Below, piece by piece: positions 39,361 to 63,966 of a stretch of DNA of 64,000 nucleotides. This stretch comes from Paramacrobiotus metropolitanus (Eukaryota > Tardigrada > Eutardigrada > Parachela > Macrobiotidae). Position numbers and translations under genes: made by a program. Where the stretch lies: positions 372,001 through 436,000 of the forward strand of contig NW_026570264.1 in the NCBI RefSeq assembly GCF_019649055.1, read 5' to 3'. Within the stretch, counting starts at the first letter, position 1, and each line of letters opens with the position of its first letter. The notes under the pieces are model-generated. The model saw only the letters and a program-made list of their open reading frames with translations, ran no database searches and was not told where the DNA came from.

Positions 39361-40805
39361 CTAGAACAAATAAAACAGCTCTTCTAGCTCTTTTGAACAA
39401 CCAACAGTTCCCAGAACAGAAGCGGCATTTCCGCGCTGAATTTCAACACTTATGCGCTGCCACAAAAATTTGGTAGCGCGCGCTTCTCCGGTTTGATCTT
39501 TTATGCGTCGACCAATTTCATTGATGAACTGACGGGTACTGGCGCCACAAGTTCCCGTAGTCTCCAGGGCCACAGGTTGGAAAAAATGACGATCAGTCAG
39601 TTCCCTGTAATTGCCCCTCTTTCGTTCTTCCGCGCTCTCTGCTGCCGATCCCGCTACCTCTGATGAGCCAGCAATGTACGATATAGCGAATGTGTTGCAC
39701 ACTGTTACATCCCAAATCAAAGGAAGGCCGTTCTTCCAAGGGAAAAGAGATAAACCGTCCGGCCGCTTCCCATCTAACCTGCTTAACCCCGGCGGCTCTA
39801 GAATAGTAGGGACTTTTGCTGATCCCAGGCTGCGCTGAATTAGGCTATTCAGGCTTGCGTGACGCCTAAATCTCCCTTGACTTTTCAAGCATGACAAACC
39901 GTGCAAACCTTGGGCGTCAACTACATCGCCGCATCGGCATTTGTGCTGCTTGCAGATCGGAGCTCCCATCCGTAACACAACAGCGATTCGTAACGCAGCA
40001 TCGTCTAAAAGTGTACCAAGGCTAGCAACCGGTAAGGCGAACAACCAGGCACTGGCATCCCTAGTAGAGGCAGCCAACAGGCGAGCAGAGGCGATAACGT
40101 CGGCATCATCTCTTAAGGCTTCCAGCTTCCTGACAGTCAACATTTCCGACCACAGGCGTTGATTGCTTCGGTCCTCCATAGCTGGGGCTGATTTCCCAGT
40201 CAATCCTTCCCAGCACAACTCGACATCCAGTCGGTCATCTGGGCAGTCCTCGGGCACAATACTACTGACCAGCTCGTCGGTGGAATAAAGTGAAGAAAGA
40301 TATGCTGGTGCTGCAATTTCTTCCGCTTTCGGCAGACCCAGCCCACCTGATTTAACCGGCAGAGAAGCTTGCCCGTATGTAACATCGTCCATCTTGACAT
40401 TTGTGATTTCTTCGGCCTTGGACTTAATCGCAACATCAAATTCTCTGAGCTTCTCTGGGTATTTGTAGCAAGGCGCTGCTCTGAGAATGTACATGAGTCG
40501 CGGCACGGACATGCTGTTTCTGAGTAAAACAACGACTGATGCGCAGGCAGAACTCCCAGTGATTCAGTCAGCTTCTTTACTTGACTGATTTTACTGTCCA
40601 AAACTCGTTCAATAGACCAATCAGTGAGAGGAGCACCAAGCAGTTCAAGTGTCTCTGGGGTAACCAGCTGAATTCCAGGTGCAATTGCATTAAAGCGATT
40701 GTAGATACTCAGTCGTTCTTCTTCGGACCCGCCGAACACATACAGCTCGCACTTGGCAAAATTGAGTTCCAGGCCGAGCTTGGAGGCTTCTTTCCTTAAG
40801 AATAC
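39361..40805 (-). mobile_element. 3' part of a non-LTR retrotransposon (reverse transcriptase C-terminus plus endonuclease-like domain)
   Basis: Minus-strand reading: KEASKLGLELNFAKCELYVF and LLGAPLTDWSIERVL belong to the end of a reverse transcriptase. After one frameshift near 40530 follow GGLGLPKAEEIAAPAYLSSL and a 380-residue frame with a zinc-knuckle-like CKQHKCRCGDVVDAQGLHGL. That frame also has KRPDG...LIWDVTV, which looks like a PD-(D/E)XK-type endonuclease core, and RISVEIQRGNAASVLGTVG. The 5' part of the element is absent: the match begins abruptly at about 40805, inside a leader-exon relic, as expected for 5'-truncated LINE insertion. I cannot assign a clade. Confidence 0.65.
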
Positions 40806-40870
40806 CACTACAATAACAATGATTACGCGCATTTCATGCGACGGGCACCAGAAATTTAAGAATTTAGATG
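40806..40870 (-). pseudogene. leader-exon relic cut by the LINE fragment
   Basis: The minus strand has GCATCTAAATTCTTAAATTT, then CGCATGAAATGCGCG and a hydrophobic reading MRVIIVIVVVFL. This matches the start of the type 1 signal-peptide cassette; the sequence then changes into the LINE. Confidence 0.5.
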
Positions 40871-41561
40871 CAAATAAAGGCGCTCCGGTGCATAAGGAAT
40901 ATGTACTGGCAAACAGGTAGCGGCGAGAGAGAAGAGAAAAAAGCGACACCGAAACCAAAATGAAAGCGATCCCAGTGGATATGGGCAATCTTCTGTGCTC
41001 ACTAACCTGTGATTTTTTTGTTTTTACCTGTGTCAGCTAATTTGTCATTAATTTTAGTTTGTCGAAGTTTATCGAATGTTTTTGGTTTGAGGTTTTCTTA
41101 TTAGGTAGAATTTACTCGTATCAGTCGGGCGTACTGGCGCAGCGCAATTTATTTTTACTTGCGCCGTTTTACCATTTTCACTTAGCACATGTATCGCTTG
41201 CACAGCGACGGCGCAGCCGCACATATGTGGTGGCGACTGCAGTTTTAAGATGTAGTACAGTGGCTCACGTGGCGTGGCTTAAGCGTTTCGTCACTGTTTT
41301 AAAATTTCTAGTAATCTGTAAAGGGTACGCTATGCTTAATTGAGTAAAGAAAAAAACCAGAAGAAAAACGGTTTGTGGGAATTGCAATTCACGATGGCCA
41401 CTTTGAACGACCATCGCCATTCACTTATATAGGTGGCCCGTGGCCAACCGAGCTACCGTACGAGTAGTGCGTCCAGTGGGTAGTTGCTAACTTGCTGTCG
41501 ATAACGGACCTGGCAACAGCGCACCGGAACAGATTTGGCTTTTTTGTGCCGCTGCTTCAGA

Positions 41562-43416: not shown

Positions 43417-45187
43417 TTATTTCTTAAACTTCTTAATTTTACGATCAGACACATCAGAAACACCAACTTTTCTTTTACTTCTTGAAATTTCATCGTTCTT
43501 CTTTCTCTGAAATCCATTTAATAAAGTATTTGTGCAGACTTTTATAACTTTACGCGACAGGTTGACAAAAGATTCGCCCCATCCATTACAACTGGTTTCC
43601 ATCATATCTGTGCACTGCTCTTGCAAATATTTTTCGGATATCTGCATAATAGCAGTTCGGTGAGATACGTTTCCATGCAAGAACAGATCTTCTCCCTCAC
43701 CCTTTGTGAAGATCGAAAAAACGAAATAGCAGTACCGTGCAGTCATCATCGCAGAACCTGATGGATACGTCAATCCGCCTCTGTTCAACTTACGAATCAG
43801 ATTATATTCACAGTTCTCATCCAACTGGTACGGCATCACTTTGTTCATTTTTAAAGCTGCACGACATTCTTGACAACAAATTTTTCGGCACACTTTGAAG
43901 GCGCAATATCCTGCGATAAAAGTCAGTATTCCATTATCTTTTTTGTCTAATTTATCCGGAAAATGAAGTGCGGGATCCACATTGGCATTAAAGTTGATTA
44001 AACCACTCAGCCAATTGTGTCGAACAATCAATTGTGGACTTTTGTGGTTATCTCACGAGAAGTTAAAGAACGATCGATCTTTGAAACACCGAAAGGAACC
44101 TTATGCGCTTTCAAATAGCCGCTCACCCGCAACTTGGCCTGAGACACAAACACCTCGGAAACAGAAACTAAGTTGCTAGCTCCCGAAAGTTGTCGGTATG
44201 ATCCGAATGTTCCTTCAATGCAGTCGTTAGAAATTTTGGCTAAAAAATATAATGCTGAATACAAGTGTATTTTTTCAATTTTACTCAACATGAAGTAGCA
44301 CATTACCTGTCAGTATGCAGCACCCTGGGATCAATTTTAACACTGCTTTACAGAATAACGAACAACAACGCTTATTTTTTTTGTGGTTGTCCAAGAGGAC
44401 CGCGAAAACCATGAAGCCCTTCTCCTCCAACTGTTCGATAATCCGTAATGTTTTCTGATAAATATCCTCGGCTTTCACATTGCTAACCGGAAACATAGCC
44501 ACCATTTCTCGCAGGTCAGAAAGCAACCCGGTTATCATGAATCCTAAAATGGATGTTGCTGCGCCCTTCCAGTCTCGGATTGACCTGTAATCTAAAAAAA
44601 CATAAAACAACAAATCGACTTTTTTTTCATTTTTTTATTATATTCCGGGTAGATTTACTAAAATTTGAATAGTCACTAAAACTTTCCTCTTGAGCGTACC
44701 TTTCCTCCTTTATAGGAGTATGATGGACGAACATTAATTTCGTCCGGGTGCAGAAGAATTATGCGTTTACGAATACCGTCGTATTTTTTTGCTGATGTGT
44801 CCAATAGCTTCAACTGGCCCTCGCCGAGACCCGGGCCGCACTTAAACGGTTTCATAATTTTATTCAAAAGATATCTTGCTGGGCAGTGTCAGAGCAAATG
44901 TATCTTTGCAAAACCTACAAAATTATTGGTAAAACATTTCTTTAAAAAAGAAAACCGTAGTCTTGCCACAAAAATACAGTATCTGTATGCACTTCGAGAT
45001 TTGGAGTAGAACGCAGCGCTCCATGAATACATTTCCGGGGAGAAACGGCGCTGTTTTGGTAGTGTTTCGTTTAACGCAAGTTGGTTAAGAATAAAAGAAT
45101 ACTTTGCACTTTTTTCGCTGTCTTCTTGGCTGTTGATTTTAAGTTCTTGTAGAACTGTCATTGCTCGTTCCACTAAATCGGTACTAG
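43417..45187 (-). pseudogene. P-type transposase body, broken
   Basis: Successive blocks: RRFSPEMYSWSAAFYSKSRS (45187-44990); LLNKIMKPFKCGPGLGEGQL and LHPDEINVRPSYSYKGGKV with the first catalytic Asp of the RNase H fold (44867-44680); ILGFMITGLLSDLREMVAMF and GFMVFAVLLDNHKKNKRC (44613-44281); the GTPase-insertion-like part ISNDCIEGTFGSYRQLSG (44303-44030); and ILTFIAGYCAFKVCRKICCQ with C-x2-C (44031-43417). The blocks lie in different frames, and at least two joins need frameshifts rather than introns. Confidence 0.65.
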
Positions 45188-45496
45188 ACAAAAGTGCACT
45201 GAAAGTCTATCAGGGAATATGGTGGGAATTGCATTCTGTGAAAGTTTCGATCTGCCTCTTTGGCATTCTAAAATCGTTCCGTCCGGCCTTTTGATAATAT
45301 CAGTGCGTATGATATAACGCTCCTCAAAATGAATTTCACATATTCGAGATGATTCAGAAACAGTAAAATTGGTCCTAGAAAGAGCGCGTACCCACGCAGA
45401 TCGCCGATCATGATTCTTGGGAAAAGAAAACCGCGAACGATTCTCCGTGCAACCCACTCGTCCTAGGTCACACCCTGGCGCTACACAGTCTGGCAT
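45173..45496 (-). CDS. THAP domain exon of the P-like transposase
   Basis: Start MPDCVAPGCDLGRVG. The C2CH pattern is visible (CVAPGC, then CEIHFEERY), with the family's FSFPK, W near AWVRAL, and the closing NAIPTIFP. THAP domains bind the transposon ends in P elements. It continues, in another frame or across a very short intron, into ALLSSTDLVERAMTVLQEL. Confidence 0.75.
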   Translation of the reverse strand: MPDCVAPGCDLGRVGCTENRSRFSFPKNHDRRSAWVRALSRTNFTVSESSRICEIHFEERYIIRTDIIKRPDGTILECQRGRSKLSQNAIPTIFPDRLSVHFCLVPI

Positions 45497-45726
45497 TTTA
45501 CGCGAAAATATATTTATGAAATGACATTGCTCAAATGTATGAAAAAAACTTAAAACCCGGCGAATACTAAACAAACAACTTCTGCATAAATAGTATTATT
45601 GTCTTCATTACTGCTCTCCTCTACTGCTACGTCATCGTACGTGGTGCGCATTCGATTTTATGCCTTAGTCTTACGTGATGCCTCGTGGTGATATATGCAT
45701 GAATTACAAGTAAGCACGTCAAGTTG

Positions 45727-52455: not shown

Positions 52456-52615
52456 TTTTACAATCCGACACGAGAAGAGTACTCGCGGAATAAATAGCAT
52501 TTTTTTTGCGTCCAAATAGCATCCCCCGCCCCTTTCCCGCGTCGGGATAGCATCCCCCGCCCCCGCCCGTACAAATAGCATGGACTTCCGTGGGGCGGGC
52601 TCTCTCCCTGTGTAC

Positions 52616-52640
52616 TGTGTGTGTGTGTGTGTGTGTGTGT
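52616..52640. repeat. (GT)n microsatellite
   Basis: About 12 GT units. Confidence 0.9.
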
Positions 52641-53933: not shown

Positions 53934-54344
53934 TTAACTTATAACTTCTAAGATCTGAAGTAGTGTGAAAGCTGACAATTTGAGCTTTCGACCTTCTTGT
54001 TTGAATTCTATAGAAGGGATGTACATAGACGTTAACGGGTGCAGTATAATTTCGAGTTCTGTATTTAATGTGTAAACATGCTCGGGCTGGTCTAACTCAG
54101 GAGCATAGCGCTCCATTTCAGTCATCCACTGTAGAAATTCTAGCAATCGTTGTGTTAAAGTTATCCCCGTTCTTTTCGCTTCCCCATAACCATATTCATC
54201 CACTGACGATACATTGTTTGCTAAAACCATTATACCAGCAGTATAGTGCCAGAAAACAAAAGTCTTGCCATTTCCAAAGCGATAAGTTCTTATCCCCTCC
54301 AAACCGGGGTATGAAATTTCTTCCAACTTTGATTCCATGTCCAA
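53934..54344 (-). CDS. Polinton accessory protein, paralogue 3 of a three-gene family
   Basis: 136 residues, starting MDMESKLEEI. It shares with the next two genes an opening aromatic strand (GIRTYRFGNG), an SVDEYGYGEA motif in the middle and a closing LKLSAFTLLQILEVI segment. I know no family for it. The closing basic strand plus hydrophobic helix recalls PC4/p15-type single-strand-binding proteins only vaguely. A promoter-like motif lies about 120 bases upstream. Confidence 0.5.
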   Translation of the reverse strand: MDMESKLEEISYPGLEGIRTYRFGNGKTFVFWHYTAGIMVLANNVSSVDEYGYGEAKRTGITLTQRLLEFLQWMTEMERYAPELDQPEHVYTLNTELEIILHPLTSMYIPSIEFKQEGRKLKLSAFTLLQILEVIS

Positions 54345-54463
54345 TTAGAGGTGTACTACATACTGTGGTTCGTCTGTGCAATTCCTTAATGCAAAAAAGG
54401 TTCCCAAAATAGTAACGATGTCAGCTTGTCTGTCGATTATTCTGACAAGCTAAGACCGTCACT

Positions 54464-54502
54464 AATTTGGGGCAACGCCCTCTTTTTTTTTGCATTTTGA
54501 TT
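54464..54502 (-). promoter_or_regulatory. promoter-like motif of the Polinton, copy 1
   Basis: On the minus strand: an A-run (GCAAAAAAAAAGA), then GGGC-GTT-GCCC, then CAAAT. The same layout occurs before the ATPase gene, at almost the same distance (about 116-120 bases) from the start codon. Confidence 0.45.
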
Positions 54503-54543
54503 TTTTTTGCTTTTTTTTATTTATTTCATTGGGGAAAATATAT

Positions 54544-54972
54544 TCAGAGTGTTAGAACAGCTAATTTGGCGCATAGGCCACTAAACTGAACAAAAGTTAG
54601 ATCCAAGGGCACAGCACCAGCGCTAGTGATGCGGAAGCAGTTTGTGTCCCATAAGTGTGGTCTGAGACGGATCCGAACGGTTCTCCCTGTGTCGGTCCTG
54701 ATTCGATAGCACTGAGTTTTCCGTGAAGTAAAAGCCCGATCCCACATCCGAAGAATTGTACCGTCTACATACAACTTTGCCATCCGTATAACACTTGCTT
54801 TATCATACTCGCCGACGGATTGCACAAGACTCCAACTGGATCCACGAGCTGCTAATGATCCGATAATAAGATGCCCATCCTGTATTCTGACACCCACGCG
54901 AATGTTGTCCGTTAAGTGATACCATAGCACGCCATGGGAAAGGCATAACAACGGTAAAGATAGGCGCTCCAT
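54544..54972 (-). CDS. Polinton accessory protein, paralogue 2
   Basis: 142 residues. It shows the family pattern: HGVLWYHLTDN near the start, LVQSVGEYDKASVIRMAKLY in the middle, and LDLTFVQFSGLCAKL at the end, preceded by a strongly basic strand (GRTVRIRLRPHLW). Function unknown; nucleic-acid binding is possible from the basic strand. Confidence 0.5.
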   Translation of the reverse strand: MERLSLPLLCLSHGVLWYHLTDNIRVGVRIQDGHLIIGSLAARGSSWSLVQSVGEYDKASVIRMAKLYVDGTILRMWDRAFTSRKTQCYRIRTDTGRTVRIRLRPHLWDTNCFRITSAGAVPLDLTFVQFSGLCAKLAVLTL

Positions 54973-55114
54973 ATTGGCGGCTGCAGAAGGCGAGATATGT
55001 GATTATAGACTCCTAGTTTTTCCTAGATAGCGATGCATGTGTGTAACCGCTACACTTCTGACCTTCAAAGTGGCTATGTTATTTCTGTACAACTTCTGAC
55101 TATACCGCTTACCA

Positions 55115-55597
55115 TTACTGATCGATCAGTGTCATGAGAGTTGCACAAAGCATCCGGAACTCTAATGCAGATATTTCCACGGGTCCACCGTTAGCTGGAC
55201 GTATAAAACAGATCTGTGCTTGCTTATTTATCGCATGTCCGTTCACTTTGATGAACAAATCTTTACGCTTGGCATCAGCGATTACCCGAACAATAGGTTG
55301 CCAACAATTAATCGATTTGACAAGTGTCTGGGGCATCTCACCGGAGAGTTCCATCCTAATAAGTTTGCGAGCCACACGCACATCATACTCATCCATACTC
55401 TCAACAGACTGTTCAAAACCTGCATTAGGATCATTATTCACCAAACCGCCAGGGCATACCCGTACAAGCATAAAAGACTTGTTAGCGGCACGCCACCCCA
55501 TGCACAGAGTTTCGGTAAAATGGTAATACTTCACACCGTCCTTCTCCTCTGTGTTAACGGACATAGCGTCTTTAGGTTGTGGCTTGATTGAAGACAT
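55115..55597 (-). CDS. Polinton accessory protein, paralogue 1
   Basis: 160 residues. DGVKYYHFTETLCMGWRA, then FEQSVESMDEYDVRVARKLI, then VEISALEFRMLCATL align with the other two copies. The three genes are consecutive and divergent, so they are old tandem duplicates kept by the element. No family recognised. Confidence 0.5.
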   Translation of the reverse strand: MSSIKPQPKDAMSVNTEEKDGVKYYHFTETLCMGWRAANKSFMLVRVCPGGLVNNDPNAGFEQSVESMDEYDVRVARKLIRMELSGEMPQTLVKSINCWQPIVRVIADAKRKDLFIKVNGHAINKQAQICFIRPANGGPVEISALEFRMLCATLMTLIDQ

Positions 55598-55972: not shown

Positions 55973-56201
55973 TGTAGCTTGTCAAATTGTTTCCGCCCAC
56001 GTCATCTGACGTTAATCTCAGAGTATTTAGAAACGCTTCTGTCACGTCCTTCGATGCCTTGATATCGATTTCCGTTATATTTCTGTTTCCCCTAATGGAT
56101 TGATAGATTTGCAGGGAATAGAAACTGAGTAAGAGGCCAAACATAATCACCCAGAAAACGGTACCTGCGACCTGCTTTCTGTTAATTTTTGAGAAGTCCA
56201 T
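55965..56201 (-). CDS. small single-span membrane protein of the Polinton, second copy
   Basis: 78 residues: a short N-terminal segment, one span (GTVFWVIMFGLLLSFYSLQI) and a polar tail. Same size and topology as the neighbour, suggesting an old duplication. A membrane role during particle entry or exit is conceivable but not shown. Confidence 0.5.
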   Translation of the reverse strand: MDFSKINRKQVAGTVFWVIMFGLLLSFYSLQIYQSIRGNRNITEIDIKASKDVTEAFLNTLRLTSDDVGGNNLTSYNG

Positions 56202-56679
56202 TTATAAAGTTCCGGTCTTTTACTCGTGTTCGCATACTGAAAAACTTGTTAATAAATTTGCATACGAACACATCGTTCACTCCTTTATGCTTGGTTAACG
56301 CTGACATGACATCCTTGTATGTGTATCCGTAGCAGCGTAGCGTAACAAAGAACATACAGTACTGGCCGCATACTGTGCTGTCTACGCTTTGTCGCTCCGT
56401 GTTAGATAAAATAATAAAGTCATCCCCCATCCAGTTCTTGATATGTTGCGAGTAAACGGACGGGTTTTTACCGTATGAATCAAAAGCCTCAAGTATGCCT
56501 GGTGAGACACAGTAAAATGCAACCCAGTGCTGTCCGGGATCGCCCTCCACTTCCGTATTGACAATGTAAGCGCCGGGAAATTCCTTGTCTGGGATTCTGT
56601 TGGCAGAATACACTCCGATAAAAATCTCGCGGATTTTTGGATCTCTCTGTAGTGCGGCTTGGATCTGTATGTTGTTCAT
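56182..56679 (-). CDS. adenain-like cysteine protease
   Basis: 165 residues. The catalytic arrangement of the adenovirus/Polinton protease family is visible: GQHWVAFYC (His), FDSYGK (acidic partner), and DSTVCGQYCMFFV (Cys, with the conserved GQYC context). In the family it cleaves capsid precursors. It overlaps the capsid gene by 4 bases and the membrane-protein gene by 20. Confidence 0.8.
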   Translation of the reverse strand: MNNIQIQAALQRDPKIREIFIGVYSANRIPDKEFPGAYIVNTEVEGDPGQHWVAFYCVSPGILEAFDSYGKNPSVYSQHIKNWMGDDFIILSNTERQSVDSTVCGQYCMFFVTLRCYGYTYKDVMSALTKHKGVNDVFVCKFINKFFSMRTRVKDRNFINGLLKN

Positions 56680-58037
56680 GGTGCAAAGTCAAAAATGACT
56701 TGACGATTATTGTTAATTTCTATAACGTTATCAAATACTAGCATGGCAACACAAACAACATTTTCTTCCAAACCCTTAGCAAATTTCAAATGTATGTTCA
56801 GATTTCCATGACGCGATAAGGACATTGCTCCTCGCCCTGTGTGTCCACGTGTGAAATCGAAACCGTATAGGCAGAATCCCCCCTTGTTGTACTGTTCGCG
56901 GTCTATTGGCAATTCACCTGCTCCTTCGTTAAGACGTTCAAGTGTATCAAGCAAGCCTTCATAGCCTTGTATAGAGCTGCCTTTCTCGTAGTTTAAATTG
57001 TAGCCTTGTGTGGGAAACAGCTGACCGTCAATCTCGGCAACAATGTTCGTTAAATTGCAGTGCGTGAAATTAAATGGTGATGATGCATATTCGCCGGCAA
57101 ACGAGCGACTAGGCACTAGGCCAAAAATCATAATTTTCGGCAACTGTCCCATTACAATATTGGACCAAACAGCCTGTTGCTGTCCAAGAATAAGTGTATG
57201 TTCACGCATCACCACTCGCTCAATGTGATATTTGACTGTGTTGCTGAGTAGTTGTTTGCTCAATGCGGTAAAATAATCCGGAGATGGCTCAAATTTTCTT
57301 ACTTGCAAACGTGGATTTCTTATAGCCACAATTTTCGGGGCGTTGCTATCACTGTCAGCAACAAAAACCACTTCATTTTTGTTCCTCACCAATTTAATTG
57401 TGAGCTCAACTCCAGGCAGGAGTGATTTTTCTTGTTGAAACAGATCACAGTGCAGCTTGCCTGACAATTGTAACGGTTTCATATTCTGTAGCCAATCGCG
57501 CCGTTTGTTAGCTCCATCGCTACAGAAACGGTTCACTTTCGCCGCATCCGCTGATGTTACATGACCTGGTTTCTTCTCCCAGTTATTATCCAGTGCAAAT
57601 CCTGATAGGGTTAGCTGCGATTTTTGAGCTTGATCCGTAAAGCCGAGCAGCGACTCTAGATACGCACGGTAGTGATACAGCGTGCTTGTATCCGTGACAT
57701 TCCTGCCACCGATACTAACGGTAACAGATTGGAATAAGCTGTGCAAAATGTTGTTAATTGGTGCCAGACAGTCCGAGTCTTTCAAATCTGCGCCATCCTT
57801 ATTCGTAACGTGCAAGTCACACTTAAATCTAATATCCGCTAGGCTCACCAACTCACTCAGAGATGGAGCAATAGTAAAAACAATATCGTTTGCTGAATCG
57901 AATGTTGCTTGAGCTGGTCCAATGTCATAGTCCTTCGTATTCCATCTTTCTGTCAGTGTTGCCGGTAGGTAAAATAGATGGCTTTCCAGAAGCATTGAAG
58001 GCTCCGAGTTTGCTTCGATCATGGCCATTTTTGTCAA
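56676..58037 (-). CDS. Polinton major capsid protein (double jelly-roll type)
   Basis: 453 residues. The N-terminal region (LAPINNILHSLFQSVTVSIG, then YHYRAYLESLLGF) matches the animal family usually annotated as F54H12.2-like, which is the Polinton/adintovirus major capsid protein. A typical later block is LTIKLVRNKNEVVF and a closing LFDFTRGHTGRG-like stretch (GFDFTRGHTGRGA). Structural role in the icosahedral shell is known for the family. Start chosen at MTKMAMIE, overlapping the basic protein gene by 4 bases. Confidence 0.85.
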   Translation of the reverse strand: MTKMAMIEANSEPSMLLESHLFYLPATLTERWNTKDYDIGPAQATFDSANDIVFTIAPSLSELVSLADIRFKCDLHVTNKDGADLKDSDCLAPINNILHSLFQSVTVSIGGRNVTDTSTLYHYRAYLESLLGFTDQAQKSQLTLSGFALDNNWEKKPGHVTSADAAKVNRFCSDGANKRRDWLQNMKPLQLSGKLHCDLFQQEKSLLPGVELTIKLVRNKNEVVFVADSDSNAPKIVAIRNPRLQVRKFEPSPDYFTALSKQLLSNTVKYHIERVVMREHTLILGQQQAVWSNIVMGQLPKIMIFGLVPSRSFAGEYASSPFNFTHCNLTNIVAEIDGQLFPTQGYNLNYEKGSSIQGYEGLLDTLERLNEGAGELPIDREQYNKGGFCLYGFDFTRGHTGRGAMSLSRHGNLNIHLKFAKGLEENVVCVAMLVFDNVIEINNNRQVIFDFAP

Positions 58038-58480
58038 AATCTATTGGCGATAGCGTCGATAGCTAACTGTCGCTTGGTTCGTTTTCTTGTTCCTTTTCGT
58101 TTGGGCGTGCGTTTGGCTTGTCGACGTGTGTTCTGCGCTTTGTGTCTTCGTACTCTCCGTCGCCTGCGTCCTCCCTTAATGCCCATTTCTTCGCCGGCGG
58201 ACTCTTTTAGCTTTTTGTTAACTTTTTCTACTGCTGTATCGATGACCGACTCCACTGCCTTAGAAGCAACTGTCTTCATATGTGGTTGTGCTTTGGTTAC
58301 AAGGCTCGAAATGTATGGTGCAGCTTTGCTAAATAGACCTTTAGCAAATCCAATCACCCGCCCCCAAAAGCTGCCACCAAAAACTGGGGCGCCTCGGTAT
58401 TTTGGCATAGCGAAGCCATGCTGTTTGGCAAATAAATCTGTGTAGCGAGATTCGCTAAAATGGTGCTCTTTCAGTACCAT
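58034..58480 (-). CDS. basic core-type protein of the Polinton
   Basis: 148 residues. The N-terminal part contains GAPVFGGSFWGRVIGFAKGL with an amphipathic stretch. The C-terminal third is extremely rich in Arg and Lys (GGRRRRRVRRHKAQ, KRTPKRKGTRKRTKR). Similar small basic proteins near the capsid genes of Polintons and adenovirus-like elements are thought to bind packaged DNA or line the capsid. Confidence 0.65.
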   Translation of the reverse strand: MVLKEHHFSESRYTDLFAKQHGFAMPKYRGAPVFGGSFWGRVIGFAKGLFSKAAPYISSLVTKAQPHMKTVASKAVESVIDTAVEKVNKKLKESAGEEMGIKGGRRRRRVRRHKAQNTRRQAKRTPKRKGTRKRTKRQLAIDAIANRF

Positions 58481-58482
58481 GG

Positions 58483-59322
58483 TTAATATCTTTTTGGTCT
58501 GAAATGTAACTTAATCACTGCTACTCCACTATGAAATCGTATTTCTTCTCCTCTGTCGTCAGTCACTTCAATCTCCACTGAGCTAAATGTCTGTTTTTGA
58601 ACAGGCAAGTAATGCGGATTCTCAAAGCGCAGAACAGTACCATCGTACGAACTGGCTTCGGTACACAACGTGCGCAGAACAGGGACCATTGCATCCCCTA
58701 CGAGTTGATATTCCACTAAATCACAGTAAATGTTCACAATGCGACAATGTTTTGGTGGACGTAACACGAAAGGTTCCTTTTCGATCCCCATATAAGGATA
58801 ATTATCGTGTAATCCAAGGGCACGTGTATACTCCGCTCCTTCAAATATAACTTGACTGTCACCGCGCACGAAAAGTTGTCCATGATCTCCTTGAATTTTG
58901 ATGGCTGCATAAGGGAGTTTTTCATACTGCTTTTTTTCGTCTTCCGTTGTTTGGGGTAAGTCTTCAGGCTCTCTGTTAATCAAGTCGTGGTGGCTGTAGC
59001 GAAAGTCCAAGTTGCGAGCGAAACGCGGATTGTATGTGAGCATTTCGTTTACGCTACTGATTAAATCATATTCATCTCTATAGAATAATTTCCTTGGCAG
59101 CGTACGCACTTCAAAAGTCGGAAAATATGGTTTGCTTATCCCAACCTTTAGATCTGACTGAAAACGCATTTCCATTGGCGGGAGAATTAGCTCAGAAAGT
59201 CCAACCTCCCATTCTCCGTCTAAGTCAATTGAACGGACGAGTTGTGTCGTATAGCAGCCAGGACGATTATCCGGGAATATCGTCTTGGATGCAGAACTTG
59301 GTAATGACATGTAAAAACTCAT
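58483..59322 (-). CDS. Polinton minor capsid (penton-like) protein
   Basis: 279 residues. The start MSFYMSLPSSASKTIFPDNR and YTTQLVRSIDLDGEWEVGLS is characteristic of the Polinton minor capsid family (target-like opening, then LDGEWEVGL). A later block is RIVNIYCDLVEYQLVGD and VLRTLC. It lies directly before the basic protein and capsid genes, the usual cluster. Confidence 0.8.
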   Translation of the reverse strand: MSFYMSLPSSASKTIFPDNRPGCYTTQLVRSIDLDGEWEVGLSELILPPMEMRFQSDLKVGISKPYFPTFEVRTLPRKLFYRDEYDLISSVNEMLTYNPRFARNLDFRYSHHDLINREPEDLPQTTEDEKKQYEKLPYAAIKIQGDHGQLFVRGDSQVIFEGAEYTRALGLHDNYPYMGIEKEPFVLRPPKHCRIVNIYCDLVEYQLVGDAMVPVLRTLCTEASSYDGTVLRFENPHYLPVQKQTFSSVEIEVTDDRGEEIRFHSGVAVIKLHFRPKRY

Positions 59323-60386
59323 TTCAGATTCTCCTTATCTTCCCATGAATCATAAGCTGGTCCGTAACCATACCATCGCACGAGATATTGTTCCTTTCCT
59401 TTATGCTTTCTCGTCCTTAATATGCGTGATATTTTATGACCTGGTCGTTCAGTCATATTAAATTTCGACAACTCTTGACGATAGAACAAGCCGTCCACTG
59501 CTTCACCTGATAAATCTTCAACTGCATACAACCATTGCTTTCCTTTCTTGACAACTTTGACTATTTTGAAAAGCTCTTCCGTGTAGTTTGTTTCATAGCC
59601 TTTCTCAAACGTAAGTTTCTTTTTGGCAAGTCGCACATAGTCGTTAACAGCAAAAACAGGAGGTTTAATTGTATCCATTTCATCTTCCTCAAGCATTTTT
59701 CCCCGAATAACGCGAGCTTCTTCTACGTCCACTTCATTTGGTGCAAAGCCTATAGCCGAATGCACGCTGTTATTATATGCTGATACTACATTATCCAGTG
59801 CATTCAGGTATCGGTAGGTCTGCTTCTCTGTCATGTAGACATAAAGTCTGTCCTTGAGCGTTCTATTGAAGCGCTCCACCATCGCACATTTTATGTCGTC
59901 GTTCTTTGTGGTAAAGAAAGTGACTCCACAGTCGCGAAAGAAATCTCTAATTTCCCTTGCCGTGAATTCTTTTCCATTATCGCTCTGACATCTTAGCGGC
60001 GGTGTACGTAAATCTCCATAGATTTTTTCCAACGCTCGAACGATCTCCCTTGGTTTCTTTGATTTTACAGGAATCGCCCATGCATATCGTGAGAAGCAAT
60101 CTATGCATGTTAACAGGTACTTCACTCCATCGTTTTCCTTGTAAAACTTCTGCATATCGGCAAGGTCAATTTGATGTTGATCGTTTACACCGACACATAT
60201 GATTTTTCTTCTTTTAAATTTTGAGCGGTGCGGCCGGTGTTCGGTGTAGGTGTCTTTTGACTGCAAGTATCGTTCAACTTGCTCTTTAGTGAATCCGTGT
60301 TTACTAGCTTCTGCGTACAGACGCTGAACTCCGCCCAAGCTACCTGGGTTAGAGGGGTCCAAATACAAATCATCCAATGAAACCAT
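59319..60386 (-). CDS. retroviral-type integrase with C-terminal chromodomain
   Basis: 355 residues from MVSLDDLYLD (a Met six codons earlier is possible). The DDE core is visible: HQIDLADMQKF (first Asp), RCQSDNGKEFT (second Asp) and CAMVERFNRTLKDRL (Glu). The last 50 residues (SRILRTRKHKGKEQYLVRWY, then DSWEDKENL) are a chromodomain, common in Polinton integrases and thought to guide insertion to modified chromatin. It overlaps the minor capsid gene by 4 bases. Confidence 0.85.
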   Translation of the reverse strand: MVSLDDLYLDPSNPGSLGGVQRLYAEASKHGFTKEQVERYLQSKDTYTEHRPHRSKFKRRKIICVGVNDQHQIDLADMQKFYKENDGVKYLLTCIDCFSRYAWAIPVKSKKPREIVRALEKIYGDLRTPPLRCQSDNGKEFTAREIRDFFRDCGVTFFTTKNDDIKCAMVERFNRTLKDRLYVYMTEKQTYRYLNALDNVVSAYNNSVHSAIGFAPNEVDVEEARVIRGKMLEEDEMDTIKPPVFAVNDYVRLAKKKLTFEKGYETNYTEELFKIVKVVKKGKQWLYAVEDLSGEAVDGLFYRQELSKFNMTERPGHKISRILRTRKHKGKEQYLVRWYGYGPAYDSWEDKENLK

Positions 60387-61510
60387 TATGCAAAAGATAT
60401 CCAACCACCACCACCAGTCTGGTGTTGTGTTTTTCGTTTCTTTGTTGGAGGCTGGTTATCACTTCTGGCTTTTTTGCTTCGCAGCGGCACTATTTCTTCT
60501 GGCTTGTATAAAATTGCTGGAACGGGGGTTTTGTTTGGTGCCCTATATGTCAATGCTGGCGTGATTGCCGGTGCTGGCAAACTATGCTGCTGATAAGTAA
60601 GTGCTTTTCTGGCCGCAGGTGCTGCAATACTTTGCTGCTCGTAAGTCAAAGCTTCCAACTGTTGAGATGCCGGTAATTGTGGCTGCGCATATGTGATAGC
60701 TTTCCTGCTTGAACTAGTGGGTAGCTGCGGCTGCTCGTACGTTAAAGGCTGTACTAAGGCTGCGGGTGGTATCGCATATGAAGAATCTAAATCATCGTCA
60801 CTTTCTGGCCATTCAACATTCGGCACAGTAGTGTTGTCAGCTAAAGCCAGCGTAGGAGAAGGACTGCGTAATTCCCAGTACGGATTGCCCGCTGGAAGCA
60901 TTGGAACATTTTGATACACAGGCTGCGGGTTTAGGGTGTTGTAAGACAGGGCAGGTATTGCTGGTCCTTTAGTAATTTTAGTCAGATTTGGTTGCCGCAT
61001 TGTACTAGATGTACTTTTAATACGGGCTTGCTTGGAAATCCGTTTATTTTTTGGCTGCGGTTTATAAACATGCCGCACAATTGGTTTTCCCGGTACATTG
61101 ATATACTGAGGCACGGACACCGGGTAATATACAGGCTTTTCGTTTTCAATATACTGAACCGTAGGTTCGATTGGATCGGATTGCACTTGAGTGTCTACTG
61201 TTAGAGGTTTTGGTTCAGGAAAATACTGAACCATGGGTACGGTATCCACTTGTGCGGCATGATCGTGAGTAATGGTTGACCGCAACGGTGCACTAGAAAT
61301 TTCGGTCTGGATTGATACCGGTGTCGGTTGCGAGGCTACGAGGTCCAATTGAGGAGGCTTTTGTACACCAGGGTTTGTTTCGGTGTTGTCTTGGTGCTGC
61401 AAATGTCTTTCGATTTCGCTCCGAATTTGATACGCTTTCGTCCAGGGTGTTGGACACGGCTTCATCACCGTATTATATTCTGTCTCCGGTACGAGCACAT
61501 ACGTCTTCAT
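60386..61510 (-). CDS. proline/glutamine-rich Polinton protein with ALTY repeats
   Basis: 374 residues of low complexity. The middle and end carry about five spaced copies of a short unit (PLTYEQPQLP, AITYAQPQLP, ALTYEQQSI, ALTYQQHSLP, ALTYRAPN), and the C-terminus is KTQHQTGGGGWISFA. Disordered; function unknown. Its position beside the capsid genes suggests a structural or scaffold role. Confidence 0.55.
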   Translation of the reverse strand: MKTYVLVPETEYNTVMKPCPTPWTKAYQIRSEIERHLQHQDNTETNPGVQKPPQLDLVASQPTPVSIQTEISSAPLRSTITHDHAAQVDTVPMVQYFPEPKPLTVDTQVQSDPIEPTVQYIENEKPVYYPVSVPQYINVPGKPIVRHVYKPQPKNKRISKQARIKSTSSTMRQPNLTKITKGPAIPALSYNTLNPQPVYQNVPMLPAGNPYWELRSPSPTLALADNTTVPNVEWPESDDDLDSSYAIPPAALVQPLTYEQPQLPTSSSRKAITYAQPQLPASQQLEALTYEQQSIAAPAARKALTYQQHSLPAPAITPALTYRAPNKTPVPAILYKPEEIVPLRSKKARSDNQPPTKKRKTQHQTGGGGWISFA

Positions 61511-61827
61511 TTTGCAATGAATGTAGATAACAGTGTTCCTAATATTGGTAGTAAGGCACCAAGAAATCCGCCTTTCTGCTGCAAAATTTTCTGTTTCCGT
61601 TTTCGCGGAATATCGCGGTTTGCCAGTCGCTTAATGCTTGCTGCATATTTTCTAGCTTGCTGGACTTCTGTTTTGCTAAGACTGGCTGAATTTTTTAACA
61701 AATTTAAACATGCCTCCTCTATAGCACTCATTTGTTTCTTGGTACATTGCGCAAAATAGTTCCTCCGCTGTATAGGTGACATTGTTTGCAATGCGCGAAC
61801 TATATCAAAAATTTCTGAAGGATTCAT
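61507..61827 (-). CDS. small conserved Polinton/adintovirus protein with hydrophobic tail
   Basis: 106 residues. The layout MNPSEIFDIVRALQTMSPIQ, a basic middle (LANRDIPRKRKQKILQQKGG) and a closing hydrophobic FLGALLPILGTLLSTF is recurrent in animal Polintons and adintoviruses (KILQ-KGGF followed by a Leu/Gly-rich tail). A virion membrane-active or minor core role has been suggested for such proteins. Confidence 0.65.
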   Translation of the reverse strand: MNPSEIFDIVRALQTMSPIQRRNYFAQCTKKQMSAIEEACLNLLKNSASLSKTEVQQARKYAASIKRLANRDIPRKRKQKILQQKGGFLGALLPILGTLLSTFIAK

Positions 61828-62453
61828 GGTGTATAAATACGCCTGTGAGTAAAAATATGCGATTGGAGTCGCAGATTATCCGGAGTCTCAGGTCGTAAGT
61901 TTATAATCAGGTATCCGTATTGTTCCTTAATGGCCTTCTTGTATGCGTCCTCTAAATGTTTCATGCCAAGTTGCCGACTCAGGACACGAATTTGTTGAAT
62001 GTCTCTCACACTTTTGAACAAAATCAGATATTGAGAATTCAAAGCTATATCACGCATGCTTTTTCCTTGTTTGAACATATTTTGCGAAATAAAAACGGCA
62101 GTCACATTTTTATGATGCACATCTCGCGTGAAAAGTGTTGAGGCTTTTACATTATTTGCTAATTCTTCCATTAGATCATCAAGAATGAGTAGCGTTGGAA
62201 CAACAGGGTTGAAAAATCCTTCTTCAAACAGTTTATTGAAATCAGATATTAATTCAACAGGGGATGGGAAATCTTTGAACAAATTCTGCCAACTCCCGTA
62301 TGCATATACAATACGCTTGGGGCAAGGATAAAAGTACTTATGCGGCTCTTTCAGTAACTTTATAATCAAAGTGGACTTGCCAGACATTGTGGGTCCACAA
62401 ACGTACACCGAACACGGTGTCTTGAAACGAAAATCAAAATTAACACGCTCCAT
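61824..62453 (-). CDS. FtsK/HerA-type DNA-packaging ATPase
   Basis: 209 residues from MERVNFDFRF (upstream in-frame Met codons add an unlikely cysteine-rich stretch). Walker A is CGPTMSGKSTL, Walker B TLLILDDLME, and a downstream VFISQNMF block matches the A32-like packaging ATPases of Polintons. It overlaps the following small gene by 4 bases. A promoter-like motif lies about 116 bases upstream. Confidence 0.85.
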   Translation of the reverse strand: MERVNFDFRFKTPCSVYVCGPTMSGKSTLIIKLLKEPHKYFYPCPKRIVYAYGSWQNLFKDFPSPVELISDFNKLFEEGFFNPVVPTLLILDDLMEELANNVKASTLFTRDVHHKNVTAVFISQNMFKQGKSMRDIALNSQYLILFKSVRDIQQIRVLSRQLGMKHLEDAYKKAIKEQYGYLIINLRPETPDNLRLQSHIFTHRRIYTP

Positions 62454-62797
62454 TGTAACACAGTATTTACAACATATACACAACCTAGCAGCCTGTACCA
62501 GCTTAATGAGCAAACTACCAAAACAGTAGTAGATTCAACTCGGCCGCAGACAAGTTAAAACTTCTACCGATTTGGAGCAATTCAGCTCTCTTTTTTTCGC
62601 ATTTTCTTGAAATGAATATATGGAGTTTTCTTACCAGAACACCGAATACAAATAACTGCCTACCATGTATTTGAAAAACTCAGAAAAATGTATAGCATTG
62701 CATGTAGAGTCAACGAAAACGTTAAATCGTAAAAGTCAAAGTTTGCGATGTGAAAAACTCATTTTTTATAAAGATTCGTGCAAATTAACTGAAATTC
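62454..62797. other. intergenic spacer of the Polinton between the ATPase and TBP genes
   Basis: AT-rich. Contains the promoter-like motif at 62570-62606 and no further gene. Confidence 0.55.
62570..62606 (-). promoter_or_regulatory. promoter-like motif of the Polinton, copy 2
   Basis: On the minus strand: GCGAAAAAAAGAGAGC, TGAATT, GCTC, CAAAT. The stem here is GAGC/GCTC where copy 1 has GGGC/GCCC, with the A-run and CAAAT kept. Confidence 0.45.
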
Positions 62798-63880
62798 TTA
62801 AGAAAAATCTTCCGGCAAGGTAAACAAGCCGCTAATTCTATTAGGACACTGCGCAACCAGTTTCTCACACTGTGTTAACGTGAAAATTGGCTCATCTTCT
62901 TCCGTTTTGCACTCGTCACGCTGGTCGATTCCGGTGGAATTATCTCCCCATTGTGCAACCAGTTTATCGCATTGTGATAAAGTGAGGACTGGCTCCTCCT
63001 CTCCACATTTGTCAATTTCGTTCAGCCATTCTTCCAACTCGTTGGACCTTTCCTCCTGAACAGGCTGACTCGAATCAACCTTAACTGGACTGGTCCGATT
63101 TTGCTTGTGAGGTGTAGTCTGCGTAGGTGTGGTCTGCGTACTTCGACTAACAGATTTAGTACTAATTTTGAACCCGCACATCATATCTGTCTCCGGCAGC
63201 CGTTTGCGCTTGCGAGGTGTGGTCTGTGTACCTTGAGTAGCGGTGCTGGTGGTGGTACCAACCTGTGACTCACGCATAAGCTCCGCCTCCAGGTTCTGGA
63301 CAAACTCGTCAATGTCCGAGGTAGCAGATTTTCGTTTTTTGCGCACGGCACTTACATCAAAGTCAGAAGACGGTGGTGGATTAGACGGGAGAGTGGATCG
63401 GAGGCGGTCAATGCAGGTGTTTACTGCTTTGACACTCTTGGCGCCTAAAATCGTACACTTTCCCGAACTGAACACTTTAACCGTGATTCCCAGATCGTCG
63501 TATCGCATTTTGGCCGCATCAAACAGTTCTGGCTCGTAATACAGGCTGTTGGCTTTCGCAAATTTATACAGATTAATGGGATGCTGATGATTGTACGTCG
63601 CCATGATATTTGCAATGCGCTTGCTGAGAACGTTGGCCGAAAAACCAAGATGGGTTAAGCGAAAACGGTATCGCTTCAACAGAGTGCGTACTTCTTTTTC
63701 AGAAGTACCACCATTGATGATCGCTTTGCCCGAACTGAAAACTTGGCAATAGCTCCCATCATAAGATGTAAGATTGAGCGCCTTAAAGTCCTTCACAGAT
63801 GTACACTTAGTGGACGATGCAATTTTCTGCAGATCAAACTTGCAGTCAAACACAACAACAGTTATGATATGGTGAATCAT
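62798..63880 (-). CDS. TATA-binding-protein-like transcription factor encoded by the Polinton-type element
   Basis: 360 residues. Residues 1-165 follow the two pseudo-repeats of the TBP saddle: VVVFDCKFDLQKIA, QVFSSGKAIINGG, then NSLYYEPELF, KVFSSGKCTILGAKSVKAVN. Phe32, Phe48, Phe120 and Phe137 stand where TBP's four DNA-intercalating phenylalanines are, with 16- and 17-residue spacing. The remaining 195 residues are not TBP: a Ser/Thr/Pro linker with TQTTPRKRKR-type words, then two copies of an acidic motif (EEPVLTLSQCDKLVAQW and DEPIFTLTQCEKLVAQC). It probably binds promoter DNA and could recruit polymerase II to the element's genes. It lies directly beside the ATPase on the same strand, so I assign it to the element; a host gene next to the element is the alternative. 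Confidence 0.8.
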   Translation of the reverse strand: MIHHIITVVVFDCKFDLQKIASSTKCTSVKDFKALNLTSYDGSYCQVFSSGKAIINGGTSEKEVRTLLKRYRFRLTHLGFSANVLSKRIANIMATYNHQHPINLYKFAKANSLYYEPELFDAAKMRYDDLGITVKVFSSGKCTILGAKSVKAVNTCIDRLRSTLPSNPPPSSDFDVSAVRKKRKSATSDIDEFVQNLEAELMRESQVGTTTSTATQGTQTTPRKRKRLPETDMMCGFKISTKSVSRSTQTTPTQTTPHKQNRTSPVKVDSSQPVQEERSNELEEWLNEIDKCGEEEPVLTLSQCDKLVAQWGDNSTGIDQRDECKTEEDEPIFTLTQCEKLVAQCPNRISGLFTLPEDFS

Positions 63881-63956: not shown

Positions 63957-63966
63957 CCCTTTTATA
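63957..63966 (-). promoter_or_regulatory. TATA box of the TBP-like gene
   Basis: TATAAAAGGG on the minus strand, 77-86 bases before the start codon at 63880. This leaves about 45 bases of leader if transcription starts about 30 bases downstream of the box. It is a textbook TATA box for polymerase II. Confidence 0.6.

Follow-up and report, generated by a model that had tools for sequence, protein, structure and literature searches.

Few transcription proteins are as conserved as the TATA-box-binding protein (TBP). TRF1, TRF2/TLF and TRF3 are diverged proteins of the TBP fold which serve special promoter sets; they are host genes, whereas the TBP described here is an element gene, and the likeness is one of description. 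Giant viruses and mirusviruses also encode TBP, as does the present element, a likeness of gene content. Megavirus chilensis is reported to encode TBP together with its own RNA polymerase and TFIIB (PMC11464507), and TBP is present in 59% of mirusviruses (PMC10132985) and in mirus-like elements (PMC10675990). With animal Polintons (Mavericks), the elements treated here share genes for integrase and DNA polymerase B (PolB), a 6-bp target duplication and terminal inverted repeats, and probably also the capsid, packaging ATPase and protease genes; TBP and BIR genes, and PC4 in some elements, go beyond the usual set. Neither TBP nor TATA was mentioned in three Polinton or Maverick papers subjected to a word search (PMC11071308, PMC8097293, PMC10328495), and in the passages of PMC7786948 that were searched TATA-binding appeared only in a reference. 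Among the papers listed in searches of open PubMed Central, none was found to report a Polinton TBP.

The TBP gene described here truly belongs to a large lineage of Polintons in the tardigrade Paramacrobiotus metropolitanus, in which it is under selection. It lies in a window of 64,000 nucleotides (the whole stretch of DNA analysed) on contig C44. Two identical 168-bp terminal repeats in inverted orientation (left copy at window positions 52473..52640; right copy at C44:445315-445482, corresponding to L028:315-482, reverse complement) and the 6-bp target-site duplication GACACG at both ends (window 52467..52472 and C44:445483-445488) define an element of 21,010 bp, C44:424473-445482, which starts at window position 52473 and ends 9,482 bp to the right of the window. 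The inner end of the left repeat continues into a TG repeat. Together with the genes for DNA polymerase B and an rve integrase, these ends are Polinton hallmarks. The earlier note had placed the TBP gene in a Polinton-type element, and this was confirmed: the gene is located mid-element, between the identical repeats and the GACACG copies. The right boundary is therefore not to the left of position 62798; DNA polymerase B follows to the right on the same strand, and the right repeat ends at C44:445482. A host gene merely next door to the element was ruled out by the element ends. Elsewhere in the window, broken open reading frames (ORFs) resembling a THAP-domain transposase (43417-45574) and reverse-transcriptase-like remnants (39361-40988) were noticed by eye.

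All nameable genes of the element are on the minus strand. In the direction of transcription, TBP is preceded by a 313-aa ORF, two ORFs that encode DNA polymerase B (PF03175, E 4.5e-8 and 3.3e-31), a 135-aa ORF, a BIR (inhibitor of apoptosis) protein (L009:1831-2361 = C44:436831-437361; PF00653, E 2.1e-8) and a 142-aa ORF. It is followed by a packaging ATPase candidate directly downstream (61824..62513; start codon uncertain), a 106-aa protein with a hydrophobic C-terminus (p106, 61507..61827), a 374-aa protein lacking a Pfam match (p374, 60386..61510), the rve integrase with a C-terminal chromodomain (59319..60404; PF00665, E 7.7e-14; PF00385, E 1.2e-9), a probable minor capsid (penton-like) gene (58483..59322), a small basic protein of 148 aa (58034..58480), a major capsid protein candidate (56676..58037), an adenovirus-type protease candidate (56182..56679) and three small ORFs of 136, 142 and 160 aa (53934..55597) without a Pfam family above the cut-off. 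The ATPase, capsid and protease were named from relatives and gene order, their own Pfam matches being below the cut-off. The family name of the ATPase is presumptive. The capsid candidate has P. metropolitanus relatives named F54H12.2-like and a DJR-like Pfam match below the cut-off, and its identity is otherwise assumed from gene order. The protease candidate (PF00770, E 0.05) follows the capsid gene and has relatives in other elements, as has the penton-like gene, which gave no Pfam match and was named by position. The chromodomain of the integrase could direct insertion toward chromatin marks.

The TBP gene (62798..63880, minus strand) is a complete ORF with one terminal stop and encodes 360 aa, comprising a core (approximately residues 1-167) and a tail (approximately 168-360). 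The sole Pfam match of the protein, obtained with hmmscan, was PF00352 (TBP; E 1.5e-25, 89.2 bits versus a cut-off of 22.9), and it fell in two stretches representing both TBP repeats. A phmmer search against PDB sequences gave 35 distinct sequences at E<=1e-3 (best 4.6e-14), 34 of them named TBP or TFIID, some as fusions; the best database match was 'TATA-box-binding protein-like [Paramacrobiotus metropolitanus]' (93% over 47% of the query). In the alignment, the four intercalating phenylalanines F32, F48, F120 and F137 correspond to yeast F99, F116, F190 and F207. AlphaFold, run on a 21-row alignment, gave block-mean pLDDT values of 92-98 over residues 1-160 except for 79 at residues 111-120, and a strand-helix pattern repeated at residues 2-77 and 84-163; the saddle fold with its two symmetric halves is thus predicted to be intact. 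The identity as TBP, the two repeats, the four phenylalanines and the long tail, all claimed in the earlier note, were borne out, with the addition that a phenylalanine at the second of these positions is not typical of the group. Both repeats extend over the full length in eukaryotic TBP (yeast, human, Encephalitozoon), as in Polinton TBPs. The A6 profile, built from seven compact Polinton TBPs and not including the window protein, scored eukaryotic TBP chains at 121.6-133.6 bits versus 97.9-119 bits for five chains which we take to be archaeal.

The tail gave no Pfam match and was mostly predicted with low confidence except for a helix near residues 176-206. It contains two basic runs and a duplicated, acidic-flanked motif, EEEPVLTLSQCDKLVAQ and EEDEPIFTLTQCEKLVAQ (residues 294-310 and 327-344), with the pattern E-P-[VI]-[LF]-T-L-[ST]-Q-C-[DE]-K-L-V-A-Q, which is retained with small changes in the related TBP L022. 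From its sequence, this motif is possibly a docking motif.

TBP loci were searched across the genome with PF00352 (150 matches; 150 of 493 candidates scored) and with the window protein (123 matches; 113 of 292 candidates scored). After merging, at least 182 loci were obtained, one of which is the host TBP (C4:406165-406662), whose two repeats scored 115 and 97 bits with PF00352, the next locus scoring 74. At least 129 of the 182 loci have a Polinton capsid or ATPase gene that was scored no farther than 15 kb away; 3.1% of the genome is that near. An ATPase search (150 of 431 candidates scored) yielded 149 distinct loci, 119 of which have a TBP within 15 kb, and conversely 122 of the 182 TBP loci have an ATPase within this distance. 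TBP was likewise found within 15 kb of 72 of the 90 capsid loci obtained by scoring 93 of 534 candidates. A survey of other Polintons for the same gene had been proposed in the earlier note, and by its outcome a one-off capture was ruled out. Fifty-three TBP loci, including the host gene, have no scored capsid or ATPase neighbour. Three of these (L029-L031) were read, and all three 'orphans' proved to sit among Polinton-associated genes, namely ATPase plus p106, a p152 ORF common to other elements, or a PolB-like ORF (the last by eye); the others may perhaps be due to the scope of the scored matches. Among the 30 ATPase loci without a scored TBP, the one that was read (L024) adjoins a TBP that occupies two frames. 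At another locus (L021, C140:246500-256400), two inverted degenerate TBP plus ATPase copies face each other.

For residue counts, yeast TBP was mapped on the alignment, and 56 rows of the Polinton clade were compared with 26 outside rows. Phenylalanine is present in 56, 54 and 55 of the 56 Polinton TBPs at F99, F190 and F207, respectively, and F99, F190, F207, N159, K120 and K211 are retained in 53-56 of 56. At F116, tyrosine occurs in 49 and phenylalanine in 7, versus no tyrosine in the 26 outside rows. T124 is replaced by asparagine in 55/56 (outside: T in 18, L in 7, V in 1 of 26), T215 by leucine in 52/56 (2/26 outside), V203 by threonine in 46/56 (8/26 outside) and L205 by valine in 45/56 (0/26 outside), while N159 is kept in 56/56 and N69 in 49/56. 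The host TBP has threonine at both T124 and T215. The window protein has H4, N56, L145, K124, T133 and K135 at the positions of N69, T124, T215, I194, V203 and L205. Among N69, T124, N159 and T215, which we take to be the central polar DNA contacts of TBP, one of four is kept (H4, N56, N91, L145). The window protein is a TBP by fold and score; its ability to read ordinary TATA boxes appears doubtful from these residues.

The window residues E116, E118 and L119 equal yeast E186, E188 and L189, presumably TFIIB contacts, and all three are retained; across the Polinton TBPs, the respective counts are 28/56, 54/56 and 35/56. These three residues and the four phenylalanines are shared with eukaryotic TBP, from which the window protein differs by N69H, T124N, T215L, I194K and L205K, by its long tail and by being a mobile-element gene. 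We assume that the altered-specificity yeast protein TBPm3 carries I194F, V203T and L205V, and that the same three changes confer recognition of TGTAAA. Polinton TBPs resemble TBPm3 in V203T (46/56, also found in 8 of the 26 outside rows) and L205V (45/56) and in that I194 is also changed; unlike TBPm3 they are natural, carry other residues at I194 (lysine in the window protein, which also has lysine at L205) and show further changes. According to PMC10005294, recognition of TGTAAA resulted from three second-repeat changes in TBP. T124N, F116Y, V203T and L205V (Table 1) and I194F/R are listed in PMC2265533 as mutants abolishing DNA binding of yeast TBP. Since the shared substitutions are known from yeast mutants, the group naturally carries changes which alter or weaken TATA reading, and because several of them abolish TATA binding in yeast TBP, DNA binding by some Polinton TBPs may be weak or absent.

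Possible partners of TBP were searched with Pfam profiles. PC4 is a DNA-binding family, and its profile PF02229 gave ten genome matches above the cut-off. The match with the highest score (81 bits, C41) probably represents the host gene; eight of the nine others are located 1.07-1.33 kb from a TBP locus, at 29.9-33.2 bits versus a cut-off of 25, and the PC4-bearing elements are some of those with TBP far from the ATPase. The small ORFs of the window element had no PC4 match, nor had the relatives of the 142-aa ORF beside TBP (L009:1261-1686). For the latter, AlphaFold predicted two beta-beta-beta-beta-alpha units, the topology of PC4, with a pLDDT of 92.6 on a 12-row alignment; membership in the PC4 family was not supported by sequence searches. 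Among PDB sequences, a profile of the small ORFs found nothing credible and the PC4-like protein of L014 had no match. The small ORFs at 53934..55597 align with the L009:1261-1686 protein at 16-19% identity, at which homology is uncertain. In two layouts, a conserved ORF of approximately 150-170 aa directly precedes TBP (L013:4069-4569, L029:847-1302, L030:74-529), with its end overlapping the TBP start and with no Pfam match above the cut-off; it is a possible TBP partner. TFIIB matches were found on three contigs only, none with a listed TBP locus, so that host TFIIB would be needed, in contrast to megavirus, where TBP occurs with an own RNA polymerase and TFIIB. TFIIS matches occurred at five places in the genome. 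Elements carrying TFIIB or TFIIS were considered and rejected: matches were few, and the listed TBP locus nearest to them was either on a different contig or at a distance of more than 100 kb. Of the families that were searched, TBP is therefore the one with the large expansion.

In the window, a TATA box, TATAAAAG, is located at 63959..63966 (minus strand) and starts 86 nt before the TBP ATG. TCAGT, approximately 33 nt downstream as counted by eye, resembles what we take to be an initiator. TATAAAA is aligned at the TBP promoter in L015, L022, L018 and L026 and absent in L025, and TATATAAAG occurs approximately 50 nt before the TBP ATG in L023, L027 and L024. Upstream of TBP or TBP-partner genes, TATAWAW was present within 200 bp (73 bp for one) in 9 of 15 cases, partly close relatives, and absent in 6, at a background of 0.07 per 200 bp on the coding strand. 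Within 120 bp upstream, a TATA box was found at 8 of 29 TBP ORFs, a number which includes some duplicates or incomplete ORFs, versus 0 of 59 other element ORFs. None of the 17 other genes of the window element has TATAWAWR within 200 bp, and a loose TATAAA is present at one of them. Counts of k-mers revealed nothing firm as a motif common to the other genes in 18 upstream regions of the window element, and established no shared motif in 48 regions from several elements. In the latter, the 6-mers ATATTC (9 versus 1.7 expected), TTAAGG (7 versus 1.5) and TATTAA (7 versus 2.3; at most 6 in 60 shuffles) exceeded shuffled sequences before correction, some TTAAGG-like sites falling by eye within ATPase coding sequence; TGTAAA was not enriched (2/48 regions versus 2.3 expected). 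The proposal of the earlier note that the element chooses its own promoters is consistent with the changed residues and with TATA boxes at the TBP gene only, but an element-specific motif was not established.

We lean towards the element TBP being an early-made promoter-selectivity factor which redirects host Pol II to element promoters, by a mechanism which we infer as follows. Host Pol II and host TBP would first transcribe the element TBP gene from its TATA promoter. The element TBP would then bind element promoters that are poorly read by host TBP and recruit both host Pol II and host TFIIB, for which the window protein retains the contact residues; together with PC4-type proteins of the element, it would drive the other element genes. 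It would thus act like a TBP-related factor with a changed recognition code. Promoter selectivity is favoured by the TATA boxes at 8/29 TBP versus 0/59 other ORFs, the DNA-contact changes and the proximity of PC4 to TBP. Against it stand the lack of a shared motif, the substitutions that are null in yeast, the incomplete retention of E186 (28/56) and L189 (35/56), the AU tests given below, and the absence of TATA at 6 of 15 TBP or TBP-partner genes. More tentatively, and somewhat short of an even chance, a whole lineage of animal Polintons could encode a minimal promoter-selectivity kit, made up of a TBP whose DNA-reading face has been rewritten and, in some elements, of PC4-type coactivators, by which host Pol II would be switched to core promoters of a private code. 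If this is true, it would be a natural counterpart of the laboratory altered-specificity TBPs. The consistently changed DNA-reading face suggests that the elements may use private gene switches, a testable idea of gene control by virus-like transposons of animals, and more than 100 diverged TBP copies with the same TATA-reading changes constitute a natural experiment on change of TBP specificity.

It is rather unlikely, though the most credible of the alternatives, that the element TBP, instead of selecting promoters, is a decoy or shut-off factor that sequesters TFIIB or other partners, or acts as a competitor of host TBP, and so lowers host transcription or the antiviral response. The near fixation of T124N (55/56) and F116Y (49/56), TATA-null changes in yeast (PMC2265533), and retention of E188, presumably a TFIIB contact, in 54/56 would suit such a role; against it, the conservation of F99, F190, F207, N159, K120 and K211 in 53-56 of 56 would be needless for a pure decoy, and the DNA-binding PC4 family co-occurs in part of the elements. 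We consider it improbable that the protein is a spare TBP which reads ordinary TATA boxes and merely raises the TBP supply for the element. Such a supply would be compatible with the predicted intact fold and with the TATA boxes often found at TBP genes themselves, but not with the 0 of 59 other element ORFs having such boxes, nor with the change of TATA-reading residues across the whole group.

The position of the gene bears on a further alternative. Of the 122 TBP loci that have an ATPase gene no more than 15 kb away, 116 fall into three layouts. In 62, TBP immediately precedes an ATPase of the same orientation; in 14, the two genes are head-to-head; and in 40, TBP is downstream of the ATPase, at 5.8-11.5 kb (6.7-7.8 kb in 37 of the 40) and, in the copies that were read, beyond the protease gene. 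Adjacency to the packaging ATPase gene in two layouts would fit a DNA-bending protein that serves replication, packaging or integration instead of transcription; with TBP approximately 7 kb from the ATPase in the third layout, PC4 near some copies and TFIIB-contact residues retained in the window protein, there is little likelihood of such a function.

For phylogenetic analysis, 112 matches of at least 150 aa were reduced to 67 at 70% identity and combined with 15 sequences from this genome to give 82 rows; the outside rows were chosen by similarity to Polinton TBPs and are mostly unlabelled. One group comprised 14 tardigrade Polinton TBPs, 41 of the 42 close database rows and P0098 (SH-aLRT 98), with the host TBP and the remaining rows outside. 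In a 50-row tree, which keeps 12 of the 42 close rows and omits P0005 and P0094, the Polinton clade had a support of 100/97. The subgroup of the window TBP has a long branch (2.3), and its union in one clade with the host TBP and one animal-like TBP (p 0.44) or with the host TBP alone (p 0.29) was not rejected by AU tests. The shared residues argue for a single Polinton TBP clade including the window subgroup; a separate origin of the latter with convergence is possible. As to the phylogeny with host TBP proposed in the earlier note, the tree places the Polinton TBPs in one clade with the host outside, but the AU tests leave a window subgroup with host TBP unrejected. A host TBP paralogue, beside the element by chance or recently captured, is very improbable: despite these AU results, the gene is inside the terminal repeats and shows 25% identity to the host TBP exon, at least 129 of the 182 TBP loci neighbour scored Polinton genes, and the gene has the N at T124 and the L at T215 common to 55 and 52 of the 56 Polinton TBPs, where the host has T at both. 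Capture of a recent host TBP copy is contradicted. None of the three outcomes that the earlier note had named as adverse (no TBP match, a position inside the host paralogues, a left-lying boundary) was found as put there.

The Polinton TBPs are under purifying selection in the pairs tested. Values of dN/dS were finite in 7 of 10 TBP pairs (0.071 for window-L022, 0.144, 0.084, 0.178, 0.135, 0.414 and 0.093), the remaining three being saturated; several dS values exceeded 1 and are rough. Between window and L022, dN/dS was 0.032 for the TBP core, 0.083 for the tail, 0.036 for the ATPase and 0.063 for the integrase (both without the first codons), 0.028 for the 142-aa ORF beside TBP, 0.135 for p106, 0.162 for p374 and 0.169 for the penton-like gene. 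In the same comparison, dS was above 1 in TBP and only 0.109 in the penton-like gene, which suggests exchange or recombination between elements.

Relatives outside this genome were searched with protein profiles. No relative was found in three scans of IMG/VR, and four proteins had no match in PHROGs. The A6 profile gave 233 proteins at E<=1e-5, and the best 120 of these 233 were examined. The 73 rows P0007-P0079 were mostly 40-60% identical to the first query (range 33-74%); one is from P. metropolitanus and nearly all others are unnamed or generically named proteins of jgi, ena, lgn or ncbi contigs that are presumably metagenomic. Cellular TBPs appear among the later rows, most of which were 25-35% identical. 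A capsid profile gave 101 proteins at E<=1e-20. TBP and capsid proteins occurred on contigs of the same source and size of 20,036 bases (P0025 and P0143), 21,688 bases (P0067, P0072 and P0139) and 27,637 bases (P0014 and P0146), a linkage deduced from equal contig size alone, most other TBP contigs lacking a counterpart among the listed capsid proteins. TBP is thus probably present on Polinton contigs from outside this genome too. A capsid protein of Hypsibius exemplaris (P0172), 54% identical over 51% of the query, points to related Polintons in another tardigrade.
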